Shown here piece after piece: positions 4,442 to 57,222 of a stretch of DNA of 64,000 nt (positions are counted from its first letter, which is position 1; the number at the start of each line of letters is the position of its first letter). The position numbers were made by a program, and so were the translations under genes. The notes under the pieces are model-generated. The model was not told the origin of the DNA. It was given only the letters and a program-made list of their open reading frames with translations, and ran no database searches. This DNA is from Silvibacterium dinghuense (GTDB lineage: Bacteria > Acidobacteriota > Terriglobia > Terriglobales > Acidobacteriaceae). The stretch is from positions 1,054,001 to 1,118,000 of the forward strand of contig NZ_SDMK01000001.1 of NCBI RefSeq assembly GCF_004123295.1, read 5' to 3'.

Positions 4442-6997
4442 TCAATCGTTGCGCAAGGCCGCCATCGGGTCCACGCTCGCAGCCCGGCGAGCCGGCACCG
4501 TCGCGGCGAACAAAGCGGCCAGCGCAAGCAGCAGCGGATCATAAGGCGCAACGCCAAAAAGCTGACCGGCAATAGCCCGGCCCACACCGATGGCCGCAGG
4601 AATGCCGAGGACCAGCCCCAATCCCACCTGCAGAAATGCGCCGCGCAGCACCATGGCCACAACAGACTGACGATCTGCTCCAAGCGCCATGCGGATACCG
4701 ATCTCTCCCGAACGCTGTTCGACCGAGTAGGCAGTGACGCCATAGAGTCCGACCGCCGCCAGCACCAGCGCCAGCGCGCCAAACAGCATGGTCAGGCGGG
4801 CGATAAGCTGCTCCTGAGCGTAGTCGGCGCTGAGAAGCTCATCGTATTTGGAGAAGCTCTCTACCGTGAGATCGGGATTCACTTCCGCGACTGCGTTGCG
4901 CACCTTCTCTTCCAGCCCCGGAGGATTGCCCGGCGCCCAGAGAACAATCTGGCGCAGATAATGCGAGCGGGTTTCGCTGTTGATGTCATCGCCACCCAGA
5001 TACTGCTCAAACTGGGTCTCCGGCATAAAGAACATGGGTTCGGCCATCCTGCCGCTCTGCAGATGCTCCGCGTTCAACAGATATTGGATATCCGCCACCA
5101 CGCCGATAATTTCCATATCGCCGGCATGACCGGCCAGATTCTTTCCGAAATGCTGGCCGATAGGATTCTGCCCCGGGAAGAAGTGCTTCGCAAAAGCATC
5201 GTTGACCACAGCGACATGCCGCGAGGAAGCAGTGTCGTCCTCCGTAATCGAACGTCCCTGCAGCATGCGCGTGCCAAGAGTCTGGAAGAAGCCGGGCTCG
5301 ATACGCACATACCCTGCGGTCACATCCTCTCCCGGAGCCGGCTCAGGCCGTCCCTCGATGCGAATGAACGTATCCCAGTTGTCGCCGCTCATCGGCGCAT
5401 AGAGCGAGGAGCTGGCGCCACGCACGCCTGGAATAGCCTGGAGACGATCTTCGATCTGCCGGTACAGCATGGGCAGGTCGTTCGGCTGATATCCGGCCAG
5501 CAGCGGCTCGACCGTGGCCACATAGCGGCCCTCGGTCTTGAAGCCGAAGGACTGATGCTCCAGGTTGCGCAGGCTCTGGGTCAGCATGGCCGCCGCGCTC
5601 AGCAGCACCAGCGAGAGCGCCGCCTGCGAGATCACAAGCGCCTTCTGCGGCCATGCAATCTTTTGCCCGCTGGAGCGGTTGGCCCCGCGCAGCGCCTCCA
5701 CCGGCTCGGCATGCGAGCTGATCCAGGCAGGCGCAATCCCGAAAACCACACCCGTGAGCGCAGAAAGTCCCATGGCAAAAAGCAGGACCGTCCACGAAGG
5801 GCTGGCCTGGATTGGAACGTAATGATCTCCGCCCGAGAAGGCAAAGTGCAGAATGAGGCTCGTGCCGCCATAGGCCACAAGCAGCCCGGCAACGCCTCCC
5901 AGCACGCCCAGAACGACACTTTCAAACAGCGCTTTTCGCACCAGCAGCGCGCGCGAAGCGCCAAGCGCCATGCGCACCGAAAGCTGCTGACGGCGGGCAA
6001 GGCCACGCGCCAGCAAAAGATTGGTCAGGTTCGCACAGGCAATCAGCAGAACGCAGCCGGCGGCCAGCAGCAGCAGGCGCAGTCCATCCTCGTAGCGCGC
6101 GCGCATCTGCGCCACGCCCGCGCCTCCCGGCGTAAGAAAGAGCTGCTGCTTGGGCAGCCGCTCCCGGTCATTCGCCTGCATATCTTCTATGTGACCGAGC
6201 TGCCACTGGCGCAGCTCCAGGCGCAGCTTGGCCTCCAGAGCCTTCGGATCGGTGCCGGGACGGACCCGGCCGATGACATCGATCCAGTTCTGGTCGGCAT
6301 TGTTCAGCAGCGAGCTGGTGCCCTGCATCATTGGCTCGTCAGAGAACGGAATCCAGAGATCGGGTGTGCCCCAGGTGCGGACGCCAGCGCCGAAGAAGCC
6401 CGGTGCGCCAATGCCCACAATGGTGAAGGACTTGCCATTGAGCTCGAAGGAGGCACCCACCACCGAGGGGTCCGAGCCGTACTTCTGCTGCCAGGTGTGA
6501 TACGCCATCACTGCCACCGGTGCGGCGTCCTCGCGGTCGTCTGCCGGCGTAAACACGCGCCCTGCCCATGCCCCCACACCAAAGGTGGAGAAGAAGTTTC
6601 CCGAAACGAACTGGCCGATGCGCAGCTCCGCGCGGCCGGCGACACCGCTGCGGCGCACGCCGAGCCCGGTATCGCCTCCCTCGAAACCCGCCAGGTCGGC
6701 AAACTCCGGCGTATGGTCGCGGAAATGCCGATAGAGCTCATAAGAAAAGAGCGAATACTCGTTATCCCCGCGCCCGCTCTGGGTATAGCCGCCGATGACG
6801 CAGCAATGGATCTGATCCCCGATGCGATAGAGCTCCGACGGCCGGGCCACCGGCAGCGACTTCAGCATCACCTGCTGCACCAGCGTGAAGATGGCCGTGG
6901 TCGCGCCGATACCCAGCGCCAGCGTCAGCACCGCGGTCACAGTGAATCCCGGCGCCTTGCGCAATTGCCTCAGGGTATATCTCAGATTAGCCCACAT
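4442..6997 (-). CDS. Orphan duplicated MacB/FtsX-type permease (ADOP-like)
   Basis: 851 residues. The start WANLRYTLRQLRKAPGFT followed by VTAVLTLALGIGATTAIF is the standard opening of the acidobacterial duplicated orphan permeases. A periplasmic MacB-like domain follows, then three membrane helices containing ARGLARRQQLSVRMALGA. A second periplasmic domain precedes a final helix set with RSGEIGIRMALGADRQSV. So there are two FtsX repeats in one chain. No ATPase gene is adjacent, which is usual for this family. Known relatives act as mechanotransmission or macrolide/peptide export permeases. Cargo is unknown. It is transcribed away from the GH43 gene across a 290-base divergent gap. Confidence 0.88.
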   Translation of the reverse strand: MWANLRYTLRQLRKAPGFTVTAVLTLALGIGATTAIFTLVQQVMLKSLPVARPSELYRIGDQIHCCVIGGYTQSGRGDNEYSLFSYELYRHFRDHTPEFADLAGFEGGDTGLGVRRSGVAGRAELRIGQFVSGNFFSTFGVGAWAGRVFTPADDREDAAPVAVMAYHTWQQKYGSDPSVVGASFELNGKSFTIVGIGAPGFFGAGVRTWGTPDLWIPFSDEPMMQGTSSLLNNADQNWIDVIGRVRPGTDPKALEAKLRLELRQWQLGHIEDMQANDRERLPKQQLFLTPGGAGVAQMRARYEDGLRLLLLAAGCVLLIACANLTNLLLARGLARRQQLSVRMALGASRALLVRKALFESVVLGVLGGVAGLLVAYGGTSLILHFAFSGGDHYVPIQASPSWTVLLFAMGLSALTGVVFGIAPAWISSHAEPVEALRGANRSSGQKIAWPQKALVISQAALSLVLLSAAAMLTQSLRNLEHQSFGFKTEGRYVATVEPLLAGYQPNDLPMLYRQIEDRLQAIPGVRGASSSLYAPMSGDNWDTFIRIEGRPEPAPGEDVTAGYVRIEPGFFQTLGTRMLQGRSITEDDTASSRHVAVVNDAFAKHFFPGQNPIGQHFGKNLAGHAGDMEIIGVVADIQYLLNAEHLQSGRMAEPMFFMPETQFEQYLGGDDINSETRSHYLRQIVLWAPGNPPGLEEKVRNAVAEVNPDLTVESFSKYDELLSADYAQEQLIARLTMLFGALALVLAAVGLYGVTAYSVEQRSGEIGIRMALGADRQSVVAMVLRGAFLQVGLGLVLGIPAAIGVGRAIAGQLFGVAPYDPLLLALAALFAATVPARRAASVDPMAALRND

Positions 6998-8417: not shown

Positions 8418-8650
8418 TGGGAATGCAGGGATAGGGGATAGAAAAGACCCGGTGCCCCACGTTTCAACCCTGAGACGCGGGAAGGCACGAACCCTGGATT
8501 CCCCAGTCTTCCGAGAGGGAAACGAAAACGGGTGCCCCACCCAAGCTCCGCTTGGGTGGGAAGGCACGAACTCCGCACACGAAAGAATAGAACCCCCGAC
8601 ACGCGACCAACGGGAGCGGGGCCGAAGGCGATTCGCCCTGCGCGCAGCAG
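8418..8650. repeat. Intergenic repeat island (tract, two GGGTGCCCCA hairpins, CCGAAGGCGA element)
   Basis: There is no gene here. In order it holds an AGGGATAGGGGATAG tract at 8427-8441, a hairpin with slightly imperfect arms at 8451-8485, and a perfect 11-bp hairpin with arms CCCACCCAAGC / GCTTGGGTGGG at 8536-8560 behind GGTGC. The end is a GACCAACGGGAGCGGGG plus CCGAAGGCGATTCGCCC element at 8604-8647, running right up to the tsaE stop. Each piece recurs elsewhere in the window. Confidence 0.8.
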
Positions 8651-25128: not shown

Positions 25129-26517
25129 ATGGAACTCAAAGGCAAGAAAGTACTCGTCGTCGGACTGGGCAAATCCGGTCTCGCGGCCGCATTGTTTCTG
25201 CGCCGCCGCGGCGCGCAGGTCACGGTATCGGATGTACGCAGCGCAGCCGCTCTCAGCAGGGACATTCCGGCGCTGCTCGAAGAAGGCATCATGGTGGAGG
25301 CCGGCGGCCACGGCCTGCTCACCTTCCGCAGGCAGGACCTGATCGTCGTGAGCCCCGGCGTGCCGATGAACACGCCCGAGCTGGTGCAGGTGCGCACCCT
25401 CGGCCTGCCCATCATCGGCGAAGTCGAGCTGGCCGCCCGCTACCTCAAGGGCAGGACGCTCGCCATCACCGGCTCGAACGGCAAAACCACCACCACCTCG
25501 CTCTGCGGCGAGATTCTCGCTGCTGGAGGCCGCAGGACCGCGGTTGGCGGCAACATCGGCCTGCCGGTCATTGCGCTCGTCGATGACTCCACCGACGAAG
25601 GCTGGTCGGTGCTCGAGATTTCGAGCTTCCAGCTCGAAACCACCGAGAACTTCCGCCCCAATATCTCGGTCATCCTCAACATCACGCCCGATCATCTCGA
25701 CCGCCACGGCAGCTTTGAGAACTACGTCGCCGCCAAGGAACGCATCTTCGCAAAGCAGACACCCGAAGATGCGCTGGTGCTGAATGCCGACGACGAAGCC
25801 TCCGCCAAGACGGCTGTCCACGCGGGCGCAGGCGGACATGGCCCGAACATCTATTGGTTCAGCCGCAGGCGCATCGTGCGCCAGGGCGCTTTCGTGCATG
25901 ACGGCACCATTTTCTTCCGCGCTGCTGAAAATGCCGCGCAGGAGCCGATCCTCCGTGTCGACGAAATCCCGCTCAAGGGCGGCCATAACGTCGAGAACGT
26001 CCTCGCTGCCGTCTGTGCCGCGCGCCGCGCCGGGATCGATGCCTCGGCCATTCGCACGGCGGTAGTGAACTTCAAGGCTGTCGCGCACCGGCTCGAGTTT
26101 GTCGCGCAGCTCCACGGCGTCAGCTACTACAACGATTCGAAGGCCACCAACGTCGATGCGACCATCAAGGCGCTCGAAGCCTTCCCCGGCGGCATTCACC
26201 TGATCCTCGGCGGCAAGGACAAGGGCTCGGACTACCGTGTGCTGCGCCCTCTGCTCACCGAGCGCGTGAAGGCGGTCTACACCATCGGCGCGGCTGCGGA
26301 GAAGATTCACACCCACATCGAAGGCGCGACCACGGTGATCGGCGCAGGCACGCTCGATGCCGCAATCGCGAAGGCTGCCGAAGCGGCGAAGCCGGGCGAG
26401 ATCGTGCTGCTCGCACCCGCCTGCTCCAGCTTCGATCAGTTCGAGAACTACGAGCAACGCGGCCAGGCCTTCAAGGACCTGGTGCTGGAAAAACAGGGTA
26501 TAGGGTATAGGGGATAG
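25129..26517 (+). CDS. murD: UDP-N-acetylmuramoylalanine--D-glutamate ligase MurD
   Basis: 462 residues from the ATG at 25129 (ELKGKKVLVVGLGKSG); ATG 25108 is the alternative. Domain 1 is a Rossmann fold with GLGKSGLAAALFL. The Mur-ligase ATP site is AITGSNGKTTTTSLCGEIL, followed by GGNIGLPV, EISSFQLETTENF, NITPDHLDRHGS and the C-terminal YYNDSKATNVDATIKAL. It adds D-Glu to UDP-MurNAc-L-Ala in the cytoplasm. The last six residues (GIGYRG) and the TAG stop are encoded by a GGTATAGGG tract, so the native end after LVLEKQ has been replaced. Confidence 0.96.
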   Translation: MELKGKKVLVVGLGKSGLAAALFLRRRGAQVTVSDVRSAAALSRDIPALLEEGIMVEAGGHGLLTFRRQDLIVVSPGVPMNTPELVQVRTLGLPIIGEVELAARYLKGRTLAITGSNGKTTTTSLCGEILAAGGRRTAVGGNIGLPVIALVDDSTDEGWSVLEISSFQLETTENFRPNISVILNITPDHLDRHGSFENYVAAKERIFAKQTPEDALVLNADDEASAKTAVHAGAGGHGPNIYWFSRRRIVRQGAFVHDGTIFFRAAENAAQEPILRVDEIPLKGGHNVENVLAAVCAARRAGIDASAIRTAVVNFKAVAHRLEFVAQLHGVSYYNDSKATNVDATIKALEAFPGGIHLILGGKDKGSDYRVLRPLLTERVKAVYTIGAAAEKIHTHIEGATTVIGAGTLDAAIAKAAEAAKPGEIVLLAPACSSFDQFENYEQRGQAFKDLVLEKQGIGYRG

Positions 26518-26606
26518 GGGATAGGGTGTAGGGTATAGCGGCCACGACCCACCCGGCGGTGACAAAGCACCGCGGACTTTACTACACCCTATACCCCATA
26601 CCCTCT
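26499..26606. repeat. TATAGGG-type tract with an inverted copy, overlapping the murD 3' end
   Basis: A run of GGTATA/GGGGATA/GGGTGTA units covers 26499-26539 and a reverse copy CTACACCCTATACCCCATAC lies at 26582-26601. The two could pair into a hairpin between murD and ftsW. Similar tracts occur at 8427, 18474, 47518, 52368 and, inverted, 54187. Confidence 0.8.
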
Positions 26607-48641: not shown

Positions 48642-51005
48642 TTGGGCGAAGCGAAACATCGCCGGGCCACCATCGTGGTGCTGGCCTCGGCCACCTTCCT
48701 CCTCCTGCTGCTCATCAGCGGCCTGAATGCCTTTCACCTGGGCTTTCTGCACCCCAGCTCCACGGTGCAGATCCTGGTCTTCAGCGCGCTTTCCATCCTC
48801 ATTTTCCTGCTCTTCGTCACGCTGCTGGTTCTGCTGCTGCGCAACATCCTCAAGCTGCTGGCCGACCAGCGCAGCCGGGTGCTCGGCTCGCGTCTGCGCA
48901 CGCGCATGATCGTCGGCGCGCTGCTGATCTCCATCGCTCCGGCGGCGGTCATGTTCGCCTTCAGCTACCTGCTGATGAACCGCTCCATCGATCGCTGGTT
49001 CTCGCAGCCGGTAGCCGAGATCCGCGAAAACTCCACCCGCATCGCCCTGAGCCTGGCGCAGTACGTCAGCCTCAATGCCCGCGCCGAAGCCGAATCGCTG
49101 ACCCGCTCTCCAAGCTTCGAGACGGCCTGGCAGGCCTCCGACCGGCAGGCGATGGTGGAGGAGATCCGCAGCCACCGCATCACGCTGCAGGGCGGTTTCG
49201 CCATCGTCTACCGGGACAGCAGCGCCATCGCCAGCTACGACGTGCCCTCGTCGAGCGGACCGGTCACCGTGCGTTCCTGGCTCGATACCTCCCTCGACTC
49301 TTCCGAGGACAGCTCCAGCGAGACGCCGGCCGACCCGCTGCCCGCCGTCGTCCTGCAAACCGCCCACAGGACCGATGAGCCGGTGCTCTCGATCGGAGAC
49401 GGCCGGTACACCGTAGGCATGGCCACGCTCGGGCAGGATGGCATGATCGTCGTCGGGCTGCCCATGCCCTCGGGCCTCGACCAGGCCGTCACCGAGATCA
49501 GCCGCGGCTCCACGCAGTACTGGTCCATCTATCGCACCCGCCGCACCATCCGGCTCACCTACCTGCTGCTGCTGCTCATGCTGACGGCGCTGATCTTCTT
49601 TGCCTCCAGCTGGCTGGCGCTTTACCTCTCGAAGCAGATCACACGCACCGTCGAAGCACTGGCCGACGCCATGAACGAGATTGCCGAGGGCCAGTACGAG
49701 CGCCGCGTCACCGTCTCCGCCACCGAGGAACTGGGTGAGCTGGTGCGCTCGTTTAATCACATGGCCGCCGATCTCGAGCAGAACCGCAACCTGGCCCAAA
49801 GCTCGGCCGAACAGCTCTCCGCGGCCAATCTTTCTCTGGAAACCCGTCGCCGCGAGCTCGAAACCATTCTCGAAACCATCCCCAGCGGCGTCGTCACTCT
49901 CGATACCGGGCTGCGCATCGCCCAGGCCAACCGCGCCTTTCTCGACCTCTTCGACCTGCCCGGCAACGATGCCCTGGCCGGCACGCCCCTGAACGCTGTT
50001 CTGCCGGCCGAGCTTACCGCCGAGATTGCATTGCTCGAGCGCCGCGCCCAGCGCATGGGCATCGCCGCCAACGAGTTCGAGCTGGCACGGCCCGACGGCC
50101 CGCTGCGCCTCACGCTGACGCTTGCCGCCCTCGATCTCGGCTATCAGCGGCGAGGCTCCATTCTCGTTACCGAAGACGTGACCGAGCTGCTGCGTGCCCA
50201 GCGTCAGCTGGCGTGGAAGCAGGTAGCCCAGCGCGTGGCGCACGAGATCAAGAACCCGCTCACGCCCATCGGTCTCTCCGCCGAGCGCATCCGGCGCCAC
50301 ATGGACCAGCCCCGCCCGGATAGCGAAACGGTCATCCGCAAGTGCAGCGACGTGATCCTCTCCTCGGTCGAGTCCATGCGCACGCTCGTCGATCAGTTTG
50401 CCGTGCTGGCCGAGTTCCCTGCCGCGCAGCCCCGGCCCGAAGACTTGAACCTCATCGTCGAGAACGCCATTGCCCTCTTCCACGGCCGCCTGCAGGACAT
50501 CCGCATCGAGCAGCGGCTGGACCGGACACTGCCGCTGGTGATGGTCGATCCGCAGGCGCTGCAGCGCGCGCTCGCCAACCTCATCGACAATGCCGCGGAG
50601 GCCATGCAGCGCAGCCTGCTGCGCATGCTTTCCATCTCTACCGGCTACAACGAGACTCACACCATGGCGGAGATCGTACTGGCCGACACCGGCCACGGTC
50701 TCACCGAGGAAAGCCGCGAGCGGCTCTTCCTGCCTTACTTCTCCACCAAGCAGCGCGGCAGCGGCCTTGGTCTCTCCATCGCCGCCAAGGTCATTCAGGA
50801 GCACCACGGCGCCATCCGGGCGGAGAACAATACCCCGGCCGGCGCGCGCTTCATCGTGAATCTTCCCTTTGCCGAGGTAGCCGGCCAGGACAACACGCCG
50901 ATAAACGGCACAGCCCAGCACAACGGCAAGGCATCCAACGGGCATCTGTCTCATAAGCCGGAACATGGCACACTGCTCATGCCACCTGTGGAAGAGAGCG
51001 AATGA
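48642..51005 (+). CDS. ntrY: NtrY-like sensor histidine kinase
   Basis: 787 residues from a TTG at 48642 with GGAG upstream. Three N-terminal helices (TIVVLASATFLLLLLISGLN and others) frame a periplasmic loop, then a further helix (LTYLLLLLMLTALIFFASSW). HAMP (SKQITRTVEALADAMNEIAE), PAS (LETILETIPSGVVTLDTGLR), then HisKA with H534 in VAHEIKNPLTPIGLSAERI. The ATPase domain has NLIDNAAEA, DTGHGL and GSGLGLSIAAKVIQEHHGA. NtrY senses nitrogen or redox state and phosphorylates NtrX. Its 3' end overlaps ntrX by four bases (ATGA). The C-terminus is a polar tail of about 40 residues. Confidence 0.92.
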   Translation: MGEAKHRRATIVVLASATFLLLLLISGLNAFHLGFLHPSSTVQILVFSALSILIFLLFVTLLVLLLRNILKLLADQRSRVLGSRLRTRMIVGALLISIAPAAVMFAFSYLLMNRSIDRWFSQPVAEIRENSTRIALSLAQYVSLNARAEAESLTRSPSFETAWQASDRQAMVEEIRSHRITLQGGFAIVYRDSSAIASYDVPSSSGPVTVRSWLDTSLDSSEDSSSETPADPLPAVVLQTAHRTDEPVLSIGDGRYTVGMATLGQDGMIVVGLPMPSGLDQAVTEISRGSTQYWSIYRTRRTIRLTYLLLLLMLTALIFFASSWLALYLSKQITRTVEALADAMNEIAEGQYERRVTVSATEELGELVRSFNHMAADLEQNRNLAQSSAEQLSAANLSLETRRRELETILETIPSGVVTLDTGLRIAQANRAFLDLFDLPGNDALAGTPLNAVLPAELTAEIALLERRAQRMGIAANEFELARPDGPLRLTLTLAALDLGYQRRGSILVTEDVTELLRAQRQLAWKQVAQRVAHEIKNPLTPIGLSAERIRRHMDQPRPDSETVIRKCSDVILSSVESMRTLVDQFAVLAEFPAAQPRPEDLNLIVENAIALFHGRLQDIRIEQRLDRTLPLVMVDPQALQRALANLIDNAAEAMQRSLLRMLSISTGYNETHTMAEIVLADTGHGLTEESRERLFLPYFSTKQRGSGLGLSIAAKVIQEHHGAIRAENNTPAGARFIVNLPFAEVAGQDNTPINGTAQHNGKASNGHLSHKPEHGTLLMPPVEESE

Positions 51006-52360
51006 ATCACATCCTCGTCGTCGACGACGAACCGGAAATCCGCCAGCTCCTCGAAGAAATCCTCCGCGAAGAGGGGTACGGCGTCTCCTCCACACCGAGC
51101 GGCGTGGAAGCACTCGTGCTGCTGCGCGATGCCACCTATGACGTGATGCTGCTCGATGTCTGGCTGCCGGACCGCGACGGCCTCGAGGTGCTGAACGACC
51201 TCTCTACGCTCGAAGCCGAGAACCGGCCCGAAGTGATTGTCATCTCCGGCCACGCGACCATTGAGACCGCGGTACGCGCCACCAAGCTCGGCGCCTTTGA
51301 CTTCCTCGAGAAGCCGCTCTCCCTTGAGCGCACGCTCATCGTCATCAAGAACGCCATCCAGGCACACCGGCTGCGCAACGAGAACCTCGAATTCAAGCGC
51401 CAGTTCGCGCTCGAAACCACCATCACCGGCGAAAGCGTGCCGGCCAAGGCACTGCGCCAGCAGATCAAGCTCATGGCGCCGACCAACGGCCGCGTGCTCA
51501 TCTTCGGCGAGTCGGGCTCGGGCAAGGAGCTGATCGCGCGCGCCATCCACGCACAGAGCCCGCGCCAGGACCGCGTCTTCATCGAGCTGAACTGCGCGGC
51601 CATCCCCGAAGACTTCATCGAGAGCGAGCTGTTCGGCTATCGCAACGGCGCCATGCCCGGCGGACCGGCCGAGAAGCGCGGGACATTCGAACGCGCCAAC
51701 GGCGGCACGCTCTTCCTCGACGAAGTGGCCGACATGAGCCTGAAGACACAGGCCAAGGTGCTGCGCGCGCTCGACGAGCAGAGCTTCGTGCCGGTGGGCG
51801 CAACCCAGCCCATCAGTGTGGACACACGCGTGATCGCCGCGACCAACAAGAATCTCGAAGAAGAGATCGCCAAGGGCAACTTCCGCGAAGATCTCTTCTA
51901 TCGCCTCAACGTGATTCCGTTCTATGTGCCGCCGCTGCGCGAACGCAAGGAAGATATCCCGGTGCTGGCGAAGGAATTCCTGCGCAGCTTTGGGCGCGAG
52001 TACGGCCGGCCAAGAATCGAGATCGGCGAAGACGCGCTGGAGCTGCTAAAGCAGTACCACTGGCCAGGCAACGTGCGCGAGCTCAAGAACGTGCTCGAGC
52101 GCGTCATCATCCTGCATCCGCAATCGAACCGCATCGAGCGCAGACACCTGCCGATGCTCGTCCACCGCAGCGCCACGCGCAAAACGGACGAGTTCAGCAC
52201 CCTGCAGGACGCGCGCGAAGCCTACGAACGCGAGTACATCCTGCGCAAGATTGACGAATGCCACGGCAACATGAGCCGCGCCGCCGAAGCCCTGGGACTG
52301 GAACGTAGCCACTTATATCGCAAGATGAAAGCCCTGGGCGTGGTGGTACGGGAGCAGTAA
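51002..52360 (+). CDS. ntrX: NtrX-like response regulator lacking a canonical GAFTGA motif
   Basis: 452 residues. The receiver (1-120) has ILVVDDE, D52 in LLDVW, and K104 in LEKPLS. The AAA+ domain has Walker A GESGSGKE (169-176) and Walker B LFLDEV (237-242). The loop that should read GAFTGA is GAMPGG (216-221), so the surface that contacts sigma-54 is altered. A Fis-like HTH closes the protein (MSRAAEALGLERSHLYRKMK). Losing GAFTGA while keeping the ATPase fold is known in NtrX proteins, which regulate sigma-70 promoters. It is coupled to ntrY. Confidence 0.92.
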   Translation: MNHILVVDDEPEIRQLLEEILREEGYGVSSTPSGVEALVLLRDATYDVMLLDVWLPDRDGLEVLNDLSTLEAENRPEVIVISGHATIETAVRATKLGAFDFLEKPLSLERTLIVIKNAIQAHRLRNENLEFKRQFALETTITGESVPAKALRQQIKLMAPTNGRVLIFGESGSGKELIARAIHAQSPRQDRVFIELNCAAIPEDFIESELFGYRNGAMPGGPAEKRGTFERANGGTLFLDEVADMSLKTQAKVLRALDEQSFVPVGATQPISVDTRVIAATNKNLEEEIAKGNFREDLFYRLNVIPFYVPPLRERKEDIPVLAKEFLRSFGREYGRPRIEIGEDALELLKQYHWPGNVRELKNVLERVIILHPQSNRIERRHLPMLVHRSATRKTDEFSTLQDAREAYEREYILRKIDECHGNMSRAAEALGLERSHLYRKMKALGVVVREQ

Positions 52361-52367
52361 GCAAGAC

Positions 52368-52641
52368 AGGGTGTAGGGGACAGGGTGTGGGGTGTAGAAA
52401 AACTGACGGCGGCCCATTCAAGCCCGCCGTTGGCTTGAGTGGGGCGGCACACTCTTCACTCTCACCCGACCGCCGCGCCTGTATCTCGCACATTGTCATT
52501 CCGACCGGGACAACTTATCTCTCTAATTGTCATTCCGACCGAAGCTCGCCAAAGGCGAGCGCAGCGGAGGAACCTGCAGTTCTCTCTATACGCGAGGATA
52601 AGGGTGCCCCGTCCAAGCTCCGCTTGGGCGGGACAGCGCGA
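52368..52641. repeat. Composite repeat island, left side of the DUF4145 region
   Basis: In order: AGGGTGTAGGGGACAGGG tract (52368), a hairpin with arms CCCATTCAAGCC / GGCTTGAGTGGG around CGCCGTT (52412-52442), and the TTGTCATTCCGACCG element with two starts and the end GCGGAGGAACCTGCAGTT (52492-52584). A hairpin CCCGTCCAAGC / GCTTGGGCGGG follows GGGTGC (52602-52632). Inverted copies of the tract and the element lie at 54085-54206. Confidence 0.8.
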
Positions 52642-52727
52642 CACCATTCAAGCCAAGAAAAGAATAAAGCGACCATCCAGACACACTGAATACTGTATAA
52701 ATACTGCTGTTATTCAACCTTCTCATA

Positions 52728-53393
52728 ATGGCGGGAATGATGAAACGCGAACTTAGTACTTCTGAGTTCTTAATCACTCAAATCGAATCACGTGATGATG
52801 CCTTCACGCCAGAAGAGCGAGCCCAGGCGGAGAAGGACAGAGCCTTTACAGAGGCGGTTGCGCGAAACATTATTAAGGCGCGCACGGACAGAGTAGATAA
52901 GAGTTTGGCGGCTCTTGAAGTCCTTGTACGTGACAGCGAAGGCCACGAATTGATCGCGGGCACCTTAAACAACTTCTACACCCGTGAGGCACTAGACGCT
53001 ATCCCCTCTCAAGTTGACCGGACATTACGCCTCGCGAAATTAGAGATACAGATAACACCCTCTGCGGTCACGAACTCGTATTTACGAGAGGCAATTCGAA
53101 CCTACATTCTAGGTCTCCCGCAAGCGTCAGTCGCACTAAGCCGAGCGGCATTAGAGCAGGCTCTAAAAGAGGGTATGGGATATCAATCAACGAAGACGAT
53201 CGTTGAGATGAAGGGGCTACTAGACGAAGCTGAATCTGGGATCGGTTTAGACCGCAGCGTTCGGAAGCTCGCAGAAGAAGTCGCGAAGGCTGGAAATGAT
53301 GTGCTTCACGAAAAGCCAACGACGCTAGAGGACGCATTCAATGTACTGATAAAGATGCGTGGCGTGTTCGAATCTATCTACGCGGACCAATAA
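52728..53393 (+). CDS. DUF4145-like protein, AT-richer than its surroundings
   Basis: 221 residues, mostly helical and charged. A Glu/Arg-rich N-terminal half (AFTPEERAQAEKDRAFTEAV) precedes LREAIRTYILGLPQASVALS and RAALEQALKEGMGYQ, which resembles the DUF4145/HEPN-like motif, then AEEVAKAGNDVLHEKPTTLE. DUF4145-like proteins often accompany restriction or abortive-infection systems, but this one stands alone. Third positions are far more A/T-rich than in neighbouring genes, consistent with recent acquisition. Alternative starts exist at 52737 and 52740. I do not assign a biochemical role. Confidence 0.8.
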   Translation: MAGMMKRELSTSEFLITQIESRDDAFTPEERAQAEKDRAFTEAVARNIIKARTDRVDKSLAALEVLVRDSEGHELIAGTLNNFYTREALDAIPSQVDRTLRLAKLEIQITPSAVTNSYLREAIRTYILGLPQASVALSRAALEQALKEGMGYQSTKTIVEMKGLLDEAESGIGLDRSVRKLAEEVAKAGNDVLHEKPTTLEDAFNVLIKMRGVFESIYADQ

Positions 53394-53400
53394 AACGTGC

Positions 53401-53445
53401 TTCTCTTTCCTGCGCAAGCTAAGCTTGCGCAGGAAAGAGCACCCT
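53401..53445. repeat. 18-bp hairpin, GGGTGC type, inverted
   Basis: CTCTTTCCTGCGCAAGCT and its exact complement are separated by one base (53406-53442). GCACCC follows, so on minus it begins GGGTGC like the rest of the family. The long stem could terminate the DUF4145 transcript. Confidence 0.75.
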
Positions 53446-53486
53446 ACGCAGGCCAAAAAGAAGGCTTGAGTGGTACATTTTGCGGA

Positions 53487-54038
53487 TCACCCAGCAAACT
53501 CCTGCCGAAGCATAAGCGACAACCCTTCCACCGCCGCCCCATCATTCAACGCAAAGACACCCTCCCGGGGCAGATACACGCCAACACAGCTCTTGCTCAT
53601 CTTCGGGATTGCAAGCAGGGGAAGCGCAAGCCGGGCGAGCGTGGAGTAGGCTTCCGCCTTGGGCAGTTCGAGATTCCAGAGATCGAGCGCCAGCCAGCCT
53701 CGATGCTGACGCCACGCACGGGCCTGCTGCTCACTGCGCAGCTGCTTCGCCATTTCCTTCTGCGCGCCAAGGTAGCCCTTGTTGCCCTCGAGCAGCGCAA
53801 TCACGTGCGGACCGGCCTTCACAAACTGCATCCCCGGCTTGCCCGTCACCGCGAACAACGGATCTTCCTGGCCATCGAAACGCCGCTCCCAGCCACGCTC
53901 CGCCGCCGCCTGCAGATCGGCATTCGGGAGATACACAAACTTCCGGAATAGCAGCACCACAGAGAACGGCATCTCGCCGGGAGCACCCTCAGGCTTTGCT
54001 TCTGCACGTTTGATGCGACCCAGAATCTTACTGAACAC
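53487..54038 (-). CDS. Hypothetical protein, convergent with the DUF4145 gene
   Basis: 183 residues without signal or membrane segment. Notable stretches: MPFSVVLLFRKFVYLPNADL, then a Trp/Arg-rich ERGWERRFDGQEDPLFAV, VKAGPHVIALLEGNKGYLGA, a long amphipathic helix with RAWRQHRGWLALDLWNLELP, and KSCVGVYLPREGVFALNDGA at the end. Codon usage is high-GC like the chromosome and unlike its neighbour. It is enclosed by inverted repeat islands (52368-52641 and 54085-54206). I do not recognise a family. Confidence 0.7.
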   Translation of the reverse strand: MFSKILGRIKRAEAKPEGAPGEMPFSVVLLFRKFVYLPNADLQAAAERGWERRFDGQEDPLFAVTGKPGMQFVKAGPHVIALLEGNKGYLGAQKEMAKQLRSEQQARAWRQHRGWLALDLWNLELPKAEAYSTLARLALPLLAIPKMSKSCVGVYLPREGVFALNDGAAVEGLSLMLRQEFAG

Positions 54039-54084
54039 GTTAACCTCTTGTCATTGCAAACGGGCTTGCCAGGCCCCATGTGAG

Positions 54085-54206
54085 GGAGAACTGCAGGTTC
54101 CTCCACTTCGCTCGCCTTTGGCTCGCTTCGGTCGGAATGACAATCCCTTTGAAAAAGCGAAGCCGCAAGCAGCAGAACGAACCCGCTACACCCTATCCCC
54201 TAAACC
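54085..54206. repeat. Inverted repeat island, right side
   Basis: GAACTGCAGGTTCCTCCACT and GCTTCGGTCGGAATGACAAT (54088-54144) are the reverse complement of the element at 52492-52584, including GCTCGCCTTTGGC. CTACACCCTATCCCC (54187) is the inverted TAGGGTGTAGG tract. It abuts the era stop. Confidence 0.8.
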
Positions 54207-55325
54207 CTAGTTCTCTTCCTCGTCCTGATTTTTAGGAATCAAATGCTCCAGCTGATTCCGCCAATCCAGCGTCTCGATGAACCCGCGCTGCTCGCGCCAG
54301 TTATCGCGGACGATCACATGCAGCTCCATGAAGACACGCGTACCCAGAAGCGATTCGATCTCCTTGCGCGCAGCCGTGCCGATCGCCTTGAGCTTCGCTC
54401 CGCCCTTGCCGATCAGAATCGCCTTCTGCCCGCTGCGCTCGCAGTAGATAGCCGCGGCAATCTTTGTCACCGGCAGCTTCGCGCCCGGTTTCGACGCCCG
54501 CTCCAGCTCTTCCGCTGTCGGCTCTTCGAAGCGCTCGATGATCACGGCCGAAGCGTACGGCACCTCTTCGCCGGTCTCGGTGAGAATCTTCTCGCGGATC
54601 AGCTCGGCGACGAGGAAACGCTCGGGCTGGTCGGTGAACTGCTCCTTCGGAAAATAGCGCTCGCCCTCAGGCAGCACGGCCACCAGGCGATCGATAAGCC
54701 GATCCAGCCCGTCTTTCTTGCGCGCTGAGATCGGAATCACTTCCGCGAACGAATACAGCGACGAGAGCTGCTGGATGAGCGGCAGCAGCTTGGCACGCTC
54801 GATGAGATCGATCTTGTTGAGCAGCAAAAAGACCGGGCAATCGAGTTTCTTTAACAAATCAAATACAAATTCGTCTTCGCTCTGCCCCTCGCGTCCGCCC
54901 GGCCGCTTGGGCGCCGAGCGCGTCACCTGCTTGCCATCGGCTGAGGTAATTGTCAGGCCAAGATTCGGGCTCTCGCCCTCTTCGGCTTCCGGATCGAGGC
55001 CCGGCAGGTCGAGCCGCCGCGTCGCATCCACCATCAGGAGCACGGCATCGCGCGTCTCGAGCGCGTCGTGCACCTCCTGCATCATGCGCTTGTCGAGCGT
55101 GGTATGCGGCTTGTGCACGCCCGGCGTATCCACGAAGACAATCTGCGCAGCCGGCCGCTGTTTCTTGCGCGCGGGCACCTCCACGATGCCGTAAATGCGG
55201 TTGCGCGTGGTCTGCGGCTTCGCCGTGACGATGGCCACCTTCTCACCCACCAGTGAGTTCATCAGCGTGGACTTGCCCGCGTTCGGGCGTCCGAGGATCG
55301 ATACAAATCCCGATCGAAACTTCAT
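54207..55325 (-). CDS. era: Ribosome-associated GTPase Era
   Basis: 372 residues against about 300 usual. G1 GRPNAGKST (residues 11-19), switch I TAKPQTTRNRI, G3 DTPGVHKP, G4 NKIDL, and the KH-domain GKGGAKLKAIG near residue 320. The extra length is an acidic insertion between G3 and G4 (DPEAEEGESPNLGLTITSAD) plus a Lys/Glu tail. Era binds 16S rRNA near its 3' end and checks small-subunit maturation. It is the last gene of ybeY-corC-era, overlapping the CNNM gene by four bases. Confidence 0.95.
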   Translation of the reverse strand: MKFRSGFVSILGRPNAGKSTLMNSLVGEKVAIVTAKPQTTRNRIYGIVEVPARKKQRPAAQIVFVDTPGVHKPHTTLDKRMMQEVHDALETRDAVLLMVDATRRLDLPGLDPEAEEGESPNLGLTITSADGKQVTRSAPKRPGGREGQSEDEFVFDLLKKLDCPVFLLLNKIDLIERAKLLPLIQQLSSLYSFAEVIPISARKKDGLDRLIDRLVAVLPEGERYFPKEQFTDQPERFLVAELIREKILTETGEEVPYASAVIIERFEEPTAEELERASKPGAKLPVTKIAAAIYCERSGQKAILIGKGGAKLKAIGTAARKEIESLLGTRVFMELHVIVRDNWREQRGFIETLDWRNQLEHLIPKNQDEEEN

Positions 55326-56635
55326 GCTTTTTCCTTTTCTTCTGCCGCTGCGTTGGTTTGCTCAGCGCCTACGCGCGAGACATGCAGCCGGTCAATCCTG
55401 CGGTCGGTCGATTCGAGGATTTCGAACCGCAGGCCGTGTTCTTCCACCACCTCGCCGGCCTGCGGAATCCGTCCTGCGGATTCGCTCACCAGGCCGGCCA
55501 CGGTGGTCGCCTCATAGTCTTCGGGCAGCTCCAGCGCCTCGCCCAGCAGCTCTTCCATCTGCTCGACGGGCAGCCATCCGGGCACCGTCCATGAGCCATC
55601 GGCCTCGCGCACCGGGCCGTCCTTATCGTCTTCCTGCTCGTGCTCGTCCTGGATCGCGCCCACCAGCTCTTCGATCAGGTCTTCGATCGTGACCAGGCCG
55701 GCCACGCCGCCGTATTCATCGATCACGATGCGCATGTGCTGCTTCTCGCGCTGCATCTCGCGCAGCAGCTCGTTCACCTTCTTGGTCTCAGGCGTGAAGG
55801 TCGCGGTGCGCTCGATGCTTGCGACCGTCTGCGTGAGCGCGTCTTCGTCGCGGATGCGCAGCAGGTCATGCGCGAAGGCAATGCCCGTCACATGATCGAG
55901 CGAGCCCTCGTACACCGGCACGCGTGAATACGGCTCGTTCACCAGCATTTCGAGAAACGCAGCCAGCATCGTCTCCATGGGCACGGCAAAAATCTCCGGA
56001 CGCGGCGTCATCACATCGCGCACCAGCTTGTCGCCAAACTCCACCGCAGAGCGCACCAGGTCGCGATCGCTCTCTTCCAGAATGCCCTCTTCCTGCCCGG
56101 CTTCGAGCAGCGCCTCCACCGCCTCGGTCGTCGCCTCTTCTTCCTTGCGCGCCGGAGCCTCGGCCAGCGCGGCGATCGAAAGCAGGAAGCCGAGAAAGAG
56201 GGTCGCCGGCATCATCAGGTAGAAGAGCACGCGCAGCACATGCCGCCAGCGCACGATCCAGAGACCGCGCGTGCGCGTAAAGAAAACGAATGGCAGCACC
56301 TGGTTGAAGATCACGACGATCATCACCACGCCCAGGCCAACCTGCAGCACCTCGGGCGCGGTCAGGTGATCGCTCGGCTTGCGGTCGAAGAGCAGCATGC
56401 CGAAGATCAGCGTGAGCCCGGCCAGCGCCAGCTGCGCAAGAATGGCCGCAGAGAGCGCAATGTGGTCACGATCCAGACGCAGACGCGGCTCTACGTGCTG
56501 CTCCCACGCGTCGATATTCTCCTGGAACTCACCGGCGAGAAACTTACCCATCTCCGAGTAGAGGCGACTGACATACGAGGCCAGCGTAAGAATAAGCAGC
56601 AGCAGCGCAATGGAGATCACCGTCCAGAGGCTCAT
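55322..56635 (-). CDS. CNNM/CorC-type membrane protein with CBS pair
   Basis: 437 residues. Three N-terminal helices (TVISIALLLLILTLASYVSR, ALSAAILAQLALAGLTLIFG, VLFYLMMPATLFLGFLLSI) form the CNNM-like core. A cytoplasmic CBS pair follows with VRDVMTPRPEIFAVPMETML, RVPVYEGSLDHVTGIAFAHD and VIDEYGGVAGLVTIEDLIEE. A CorC_HlyC domain ends it, with WLPVEQMEELLGEALELPE and GRIPQAGEVVEEHGLRFEIL. Members are linked to Mg2+/Co2+ efflux. It sits between ybeY and era as in many genomes, overlapping both by four bases. Confidence 0.92.
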   Translation of the reverse strand: MSLWTVISIALLLLILTLASYVSRLYSEMGKFLAGEFQENIDAWEQHVEPRLRLDRDHIALSAAILAQLALAGLTLIFGMLLFDRKPSDHLTAPEVLQVGLGVVMIVVIFNQVLPFVFFTRTRGLWIVRWRHVLRVLFYLMMPATLFLGFLLSIAALAEAPARKEEEATTEAVEALLEAGQEEGILEESDRDLVRSAVEFGDKLVRDVMTPRPEIFAVPMETMLAAFLEMLVNEPYSRVPVYEGSLDHVTGIAFAHDLLRIRDEDALTQTVASIERTATFTPETKKVNELLREMQREKQHMRIVIDEYGGVAGLVTIEDLIEELVGAIQDEHEQEDDKDGPVREADGSWTVPGWLPVEQMEELLGEALELPEDYEATTVAGLVSESAGRIPQAGEVVEEHGLRFEILESTDRRIDRLHVSRVGAEQTNAAAEEKEKA

Positions 56636-57222
56636 CGCGCGCGGCTCCTGGAGTCTTTATGCGTTGCCACTTTCTTCGCGGAGACCTGCTTCGCAACAGC
56701 CTTTTTTGCAGGCGCCTTCTTCGCGCTTTTCTTCACAGGTGAAGTGTTTTTCTCCGCAGGCTTCGCTTTACCCAGGGTCCGCAAGATCAGACCTGCTTCC
56801 AGCCCTAGCTTCTTGCGCAGGCGCTCTTCCTTGCGCGCCATCTCGCCGTCGTCGACCTCGTGGTCGTATCCGGCCAGGTGCAGCGCACCATGCAGCAGCA
56901 GCACTTCCAGCTCGATCACCAGCGCATGCCCGCGCGATTCGGCCTCGCGTGCGGCGGTTTCGACCGAGATCGCCAGATCACCGGCAATGCCCATCGCCTG
57001 CCCCATCTCGTCAGCCGGGAAAGAGAGCACGTCCGTCGCCTTGTCCTTCTTGCGATAGTCGCGATTCAGGCGGCGAATCTCCGCATCGCCGGTCAGCAGC
57101 ACGGAAACTTCGCCCTTCAGGCGCGCCTCGGCCTGCGCGGCGGCCAGAAAGCGCGTGAGCCGCGCCCGCTTGAGCGCGGTCCGCCCGAACTTCTCCTCTA
57201 TCTCTGGGTCGATGTCGATCAT
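56632..57222 (-). CDS. ybeY: Endoribonuclease YbeY with a lysine-rich tail
   Basis: 196 residues from the ATG at 57222; the longer frame would start inside the terminator at 57256. The zinc site is HGALHLAGYDH, with the preceding RKKDKATDVLSFPAD and ELEVLLLHG. YbeY processes 16S rRNA and takes part in ribosome quality control. The last ~45 residues are Lys/Ala/Pro-rich (KKSAKKAPAKKAVAKQ, VATHKDSRSRAR), resembling histone H1-type tails, and are an addition to the family. It is coupled to the CNNM gene; phoH lies upstream across a terminator. Confidence 0.95.
   Translation of the reverse strand: MIDIDPEIEEKFGRTALKRARLTRFLAAAQAEARLKGEVSVLLTGDAEIRRLNRDYRKKDKATDVLSFPADEMGQAMGIAGDLAISVETAAREAESRGHALVIELEVLLLHGALHLAGYDHEVDDGEMARKEERLRKKLGLEAGLILRTLGKAKPAEKNTSPVKKSAKKAPAKKAVAKQVSAKKVATHKDSRSRAR

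Follow-up and report, generated by a model that had tools for sequence, protein, structure and literature searches.

Between two conserved genes, the ntrX-like gene and era, of Silvibacterium dinghuense (GCF_004123295.1, contig NZ_SDMK01000001.1; genome 5.1 Mb) lie two accessory genes, flanked on either side by inverted copies of the same two repeat families. This mirror symmetry poses the question whether the genes form a cassette that was inserted or rearranged through the repeats, as a sequence-only reading of the locus had proposed. Here we analyse this arrangement within a window, the 64,000-nt stretch at positions 1,054,001-1,118,000 of the forward strand, and compare it with the rest of the genome and with related genomes. 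Positions refer to the window unless a contig (C) is named. Genome-wide tendencies were measured in an 800-kb sample (C1:900001-1380000 and C4:100001-420000; 16% of the genome) with genes from a home-made caller.

We consider it likely that the region is a variable convergent gap furnished with dispersed repeats, which two accessory genes have entered and in which the repeats need not have taken part. What we find is ordinary genome architecture plus a single orphan gene that may be of interest for defence.

Layout of the ntrX-era gap

The left flank is formed by a gene for an ntrX-like sigma-54 response regulator on the plus strand (51002-52360; Pfam Response_reg, Sigma54_activat and HTH_8), which ends in a TAA stop at 52358-52360. 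Eight nucleotides past this stop starts a G-rich heptad tract (52368-52397, plus strand; assigned from its sequence and from family statistics). It is followed, all on the plus strand, by a dispersed hairpin repeat, CCATTCAAGCC ... GGCTTGAGTGGGG (52411-52444), whose 14-mers occur up to 13 times in the 800 kb, a partial GTCATT element comprising the core only (52492-52507; found by repeat analysis of the window), the left copy of the complete, REPIN-like GTCATT element with its internal hairpin GCTCGCCAAAGGCGAGC (52526-52587), and a dispersed palindromic repeat, GGGTGCCCCGTCCAAGC ... GCTTGGGCGGGA (52602-52633). Within the latter, GTGCCCCGTCCAAGC is found 15 times in the 800 kb and its reversed control not once.

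Next comes an intact gene for a 221-residue DUF4145 (HEPN-type) protein with atypical codon usage (52728-53393, plus strand; Pfam PF13643). It converges, across a perfect 18-bp palindrome with a 3-nt loop in the fold (53397-53442), on a minus-strand gene for a 183-residue protein without family match (53487-54038), which has an alpha+beta model and codon usage in the normal range. The right copy of the GTCATT element (54083-54144, minus strand) and a second heptad tract with three G-runs (54186-54209, minus strand) complete the gap. The first TAG of this tract is the stop codon of the era GTPase gene (54207-55325, minus strand; Pfam MMR_HSR1 and KH_2). Over positions 50000-57000, no Rfam family reached threshold.

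The inverted pair of elements that the sequence-only reading had described is real: its arms are 62 nt long, 92% complementary and 1495 nt apart. A heptad tract is likewise present on both sides, as claimed, but the left one starts with CAGGGTGTAGGGG and not TAGGGTGTAGGGG, and the right one runs beyond position 54206, where the island had been thought to end, into the era stop codon at 54207-54209.

GGGTGCCCC is a very common repeat core, with 164 copies in the 800 kb versus three for the reversed control; in the window it occurs at 8530, 18652, 23562, 28814, 52602 and 61539.

Dispersed repeats and the cassette reading

Both repeat families are dispersed throughout the genome, which argues against the central claim that they bracket or mobilise a cassette. 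They are far above chance in number, but not private to the locus. The element core TTGTCATTCCGACCG has 49 exact copies in the 5.1-Mb genome (reversed control 0), and the 62-nt element sequence has at least 51 matches at E up to 0.01, with 40 of the 135 candidates scored. With a profile built in this analysis, we found 111 copies in the 800 kb, all but three of them outside gene calls; the remaining three overlap a called gene. Of the 108 extragenic copies, 44 stand between convergent, 46 between co-directional and 18 between divergent genes.

Neighbouring copies are often arranged as close inverted doublets. Among 29 pairs within 300 bp, 22 are in +- orientation, four are --, two -+ and one ++. 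Shuffling the strands gave a mean of 7.1 +- pairs and never reached 22 in 10000 trials. The spacer measures 11-16 nt in 12 of the 22 close inverted doublets. In these respects (extragenic position, high copy number and, in the 800 kb, inverted doublets with a short spacer), the GTCATT element resembles REPINs, which the available part of PMC3116915 describes as short palindromic, extragenic elements present in many copies and arranged as inverted doublets with a short spacer. Unlike REPINs, the GTCATT family has no RAYT transposase gene found adjoining it in this genome, and because no RAYT gene flanked by the element was found, we label it REPIN-like rather than REPIN. GTAG and CGTC tags are described in PMC3733652. 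In the portions of the literature covered by our search, we found no description of either the GTCATT element or the TAGGGNN tract for Acidobacteria.

Only one Y1_Tnp (RAYT-type) match was detected in the genome, at C1:2075683-2076006. The gene is flanked by a different palindrome family, GGCACGGCTTCAGCCGTGCC and GGGGCTGAAGCCCC, and among the GTCATT copies listed none lies near it. The idea that this transposase moves the GTCATT element thus found no support.

Between 1 and 2.5 kb, 23 neighbouring pairs comprise 11 ++, five --, six -+ and a single +-, which is the ntrX-era pair itself. Facing copies at cassette-like spacing are thus not in excess, although the chance expectation for +- pairs at this distance is rough, as close doublets use up many +- neighbours. 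Because there is no such excess, the two copies in the gap would face each other by chance.

If the inverted repeats were the ends of a true mobile cassette, recognised in trans by a transposase as in a cargo-carrying MITE, the inverted pairs of both families would be accounted for, and the genome does hold a Y1 transposase gene. We nevertheless regard such a cassette as extremely improbable. The sole Y1 gene is associated with the other palindrome family, ends around different cargo at cassette spacing were not seen elsewhere in the 800 kb, and no target-site duplication is visible by eye beside the outer ends. Related elements also occur in the same gap of relatives that lack these genes (see below). 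Genes flanked by the element are no more foreign in codon usage than unflanked ones (27 genes with elements on both sides versus 438 with none, p = 0.27; 92 genes have one), so that the idea of element-flanked genes being foreign in general was not borne out.

Alternatively, the genes may have been inserted into the spacer of one GTCATT doublet, so that the repeat served as a landing site and not as a mobilising end. The two copies do face each other as in a doublet, which is how close copies of this element are usually arranged. Against this, the locus is the only +- pair among those at 1-2.5 kb, and no called gene stands between the members of the four +- pairs at 300-1000 bp. Moreover, the left copy is closer to a copy at C1:1793763 (97% identical, the best among the matches listed) than to its supposed partner (92%), and the 183-residue protein gene has codon usage in the normal range. 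We judge this scenario unlikely.

The heptad tracts account for the remaining part of the symmetry. In the 800 kb there are 37 (TAGGGNN)n tracts, 33 of them intergenic. Nineteen of these 33 are positioned from -12 to +30 nt relative to a stop codon on their own strand, compared with 6.6% of random intergenic positions. Starts on that strand have no tract beside them, and opposite-strand stops and starts have one each. Across the whole genome, there are 61 copies of AGGGTGTRGGG and four of its reversed control. The convergent ntrX and era genes each carry a tract at their 3' end, so that the clustering of tracts at 3' ends gives the mirror symmetry that had suggested a cassette. The ntrX-era gap would combine a heptad tract at each 3' end with GTCATT copies and other short palindromes, as do other gaps of this genome. 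More generally, convergent genes together with dispersed repeats can look like a bracketed mobile island and probably give rise to false positives in such genomes.

Not every tract fits this simple gene-end reading. Fourteen of the 33 intergenic tracts stand away from any same-strand stop. Ten pairs of tracts lie within 2 kb of each other, eight of them facing (+ then -), one -+ and one --, and three of the eight facing pairs are located between co-directional gene calls. For these three, the gene-end reading offers no explanation; they could reflect missed genes or an inverted element in its own right. Together with the 14 tracts away from stops, they indicate that the tract may partly be such an inverted element. 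Two facing tracts about 45 nt apart are also found at 26496-26596, outside the convergent gaps as judged from the gene calls.

The tract recurs in related bacteria. Exact copies of the 12-mer TAGGGTGTAGGG are also numerous in G006 of the same genus (nine) and G041 of the same family (eight), and at least one copy is present in 15 of 100 genomes, our own included. For the relatives, 30 loci yielded 21 rows, from which four duplicates were dropped to leave 17 distinct sites, all plus-strand hits. Eight of these sites end an open frame of at least 145 codons within 11 nt or at their own TAG; the check is weak, as for three of the eight the control direction, too, holds an open frame (88-99 codons).

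The closest repeats on record are the G-rich heptads of Xanthomonas and Nostoc. According to the part of PMC4692102 available, most downstream copies of the Xanthomonas (GGGAATC) and Nostoc (GGGGAYT) heptads lie on the coding strand, 0-50 bp from the stop codon or overlapping it, and paired convergent copies occur in Xanthomonas, too. TAGGGNN shares with them a G-rich 7-nt unit, the intergenic location and the position on the coding strand near a stop codon, as far as that account goes (PMC4692102). It differs in its unit, its short arrays and its Acidobacteriota host. With four G-runs and loops of 3-4 nt, the left tract matches, on its coding strand, the canonical sequence pattern of a G-quadruplex. 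With our data, the G-rich heptads at gene 3' ends in Xanthomonas and Nostoc gain a counterpart in Acidobacteriota.

The first TAG of a heptad tract can be the stop codon of a gene, and TAG recurs through all three frames. It is conceivable, if distinctly doubtful, that the heptad is a functional 3'-end device and that convergent gaps, with heptads of the G-quadruplex type at both gene ends and with hairpin doublets, are tolerated landing sites for single foreign genes of the defence type. If so, the heptad tract would end translation or transcription in these bacteria.

The gap in related genomes

Of 61 genomes, 32 have a match to era at E up to 1e-60; this number includes our own, and pieces around the gene were fetched for 18 of the 31 others. 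In 13 of the 18 pieces ntrX stands beside era; it was not found there in G004, G010, G015, G016 and G020. The gap is shorter than 300 bp in seven of the 13 (G001, G005, G006, G024, G025, G027 and G035), and in the other six it is filled with other open frames. These comprise a 272-codon frame without Pfam hit (G008), DUF2911 (G012), HATPase_c_2 (G014), a TonB receptor (G029), several genes including a molybdopterin oxidoreductase (G031) and an esterase (G034). The proposal that extra genes have been added at this site is therefore supported. A tblastn search at E up to 1e-4 detected neither of the two window genes among the 18 pieces.

Relatives of the GTCATT element are located near the ntrX end of the gap in G008 (E 8.6e-6) and G005 (E 4.9e-4), oriented like the left copy in the window and without either window gene. 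The gap of G005, a member of the same genus, measures about 265 bp and is too short for both genes; a related element in it means that such repeats can be present without an island. In the gap of G014, the element has a weak match (E 0.004), and two core-like sequences face each other. Era proteins of the closest relatives compared are 75-80% identical, a distance at which breakpoints are not readable at base level.

In G031, a 225-bp piece at 5883-6106 of the fetched locus is 92% identical to that genome's own era 3' end. It lies downstream of a block of other genes, which include DUF202 and the molybdopterin oxidoreductase, as if an insertion had duplicated the 3' end of era.

The accessory genes and the hairpin between them

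The assignment of the first accessory gene to the DUF4145/HEPN families was borne out by HMM search, with a PF13643 match over residues 127-205 (E 2.5e-6, 27.9 bits, cut-off 23.1). Against the same cut-off, one homologue (L033) scores 36.9 bits and another (L032) 17.1 bits, below it. The gene had also been described as AT-rich. At about 50% GC, where most windows of the flanking genes have about 57-69%, it is so only relative to its surroundings. Its codon score is -0.12 per codon, against a 1st percentile of 0.065 and a median of 0.317 among 495 called genes of at least 450 nt; these were picked with the same score, so that genes with low values are too few among them and the DUF4145 gene stands out somewhat more than it should. 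By codon usage, the DUF4145 gene is probably foreign.

It is also rare. Matches at E up to 1e-3 were found in 10 of 100 genomes, our own included, and near-full-length ones in only three: our own copy, G010 (35% identical) and G066 (32%). A scan of genome contigs confirmed two of 77 pattern matches, apparently these same G010 and G066 copies. The last 4 nt of a gene with an RE_endonuc domain overlap the G066 homologue (L186), and next to the G010 homologue (L185/L032) lies a toxin-antitoxin-like pair that carries Gp49 and HI1420-antidote domains. The DUF4145 gene of the window is thus a rare orphan, and its two near-full-length homologues have a restriction-type gene and the toxin-antitoxin-like pair, respectively, as neighbours.

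The RNase motif of HEPN proteins is RX4-6H, which is not universal in the family. According to the available part of PMC3710099, DUF4145 is a HEPN-superfamily domain that occurs fused to restriction, TerD and McrBC genes or next to them, and its table entry reads 'Mostly conserved (80%)', which we took to refer to this motif. In contrast to the reported family, the window gene stands alone and its protein has no arginine before the conserved histidine. The segment reads KAGNDVLH, with no arginine in the eight residues preceding the histidine, and L032 is alike; L033 has the arginine (RLTGRNAVH). RNase activity of the window protein is doubtful for this reason. As the motif is not universal, the missing arginine bears on the RNase claim and on no other; the defence role suggested by the sequence-only reading is plausible, the family being known from restriction and defence loci. 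Most likely, the protein would be a helical, HEPN-type accessory or defence protein with a non-catalytic or altered active site.

Further searches yielded little for this protein. PADLOC returned a weak CARF_HEPN match (E 0.03), PHROGs a single match to phrog_1305, 'DNA binding protein' (E 3.3e-6), and a sequence search of solved structures one match at E 0.22. No relative was confirmed in viral contigs, and the plasmid and phage collections gave no match. The predicted model is all-helical, with a mean pLDDT of 42.6 from three sequences, too poor for a structure search.

Searches of Pfam, PADLOC, NCBIfam and PHROGs gave no match for the 183-residue protein at E up to 1, nor did a sequence search of solved structures. 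The protein has matches in two of 100 genomes and six of 396 phylum genomes, our own included in both counts, and the relatives examined stand in different settings, as judged from open-frame lists. Its model is good (alpha+beta, mean pLDDT 84.1), with no clear fold match: the best hits were an AdoMetDC prozyme in the PDB (Foldseek, E 0.05), a phage AdoMetDC-family model in BFVD (E 0.011) and a Roco COR domain with VIA (Z 6.9, under the level that stands out). With a codon score of 0.206, which 17% of the 495 genes fall below, the gene lies in the normal range and is not obviously foreign.

The two genes could in principle act together as a toxin-antitoxin or defence unit. They are adjacent, and the neighbourhoods of the DUF4145 homologues (the RE_endonuc gene and the Gp49/HI1420-antidote pair) would suit such a role. 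Against this, they are convergent and form no operon, differ in codon usage and, in the 100 genomes searched with both, occur together in our own only. In addition, a 13-kb piece around one relative of the 183-residue protein gene (L093) contains no DUF4145 homologue. A joint unit is thus very unlikely. In the variable gap that we favour, the two genes would probably have arrived separately, because the DUF4145 gene looks foreign while the other has normal codon usage, belongs to a rare family and occupies varied sites in relatives.

The long hairpin between the two genes, noted from the sequence at the outset, is real, with a folding energy of -33.6 kcal/mol and a z-score of -8.1. Its 15-mer arm occurs once in the 800 kb sampled. 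It has no T-tract and was not flagged by the terminator scan. The hairpin is a possible bidirectional 3' end and might terminate both transcripts or protect them.

Upstream of the DUF4145 gene, at 52691-52710, lies TACTGTATAAATACTGCTGT, which resembles one half of a LexA box of the E. coli type.
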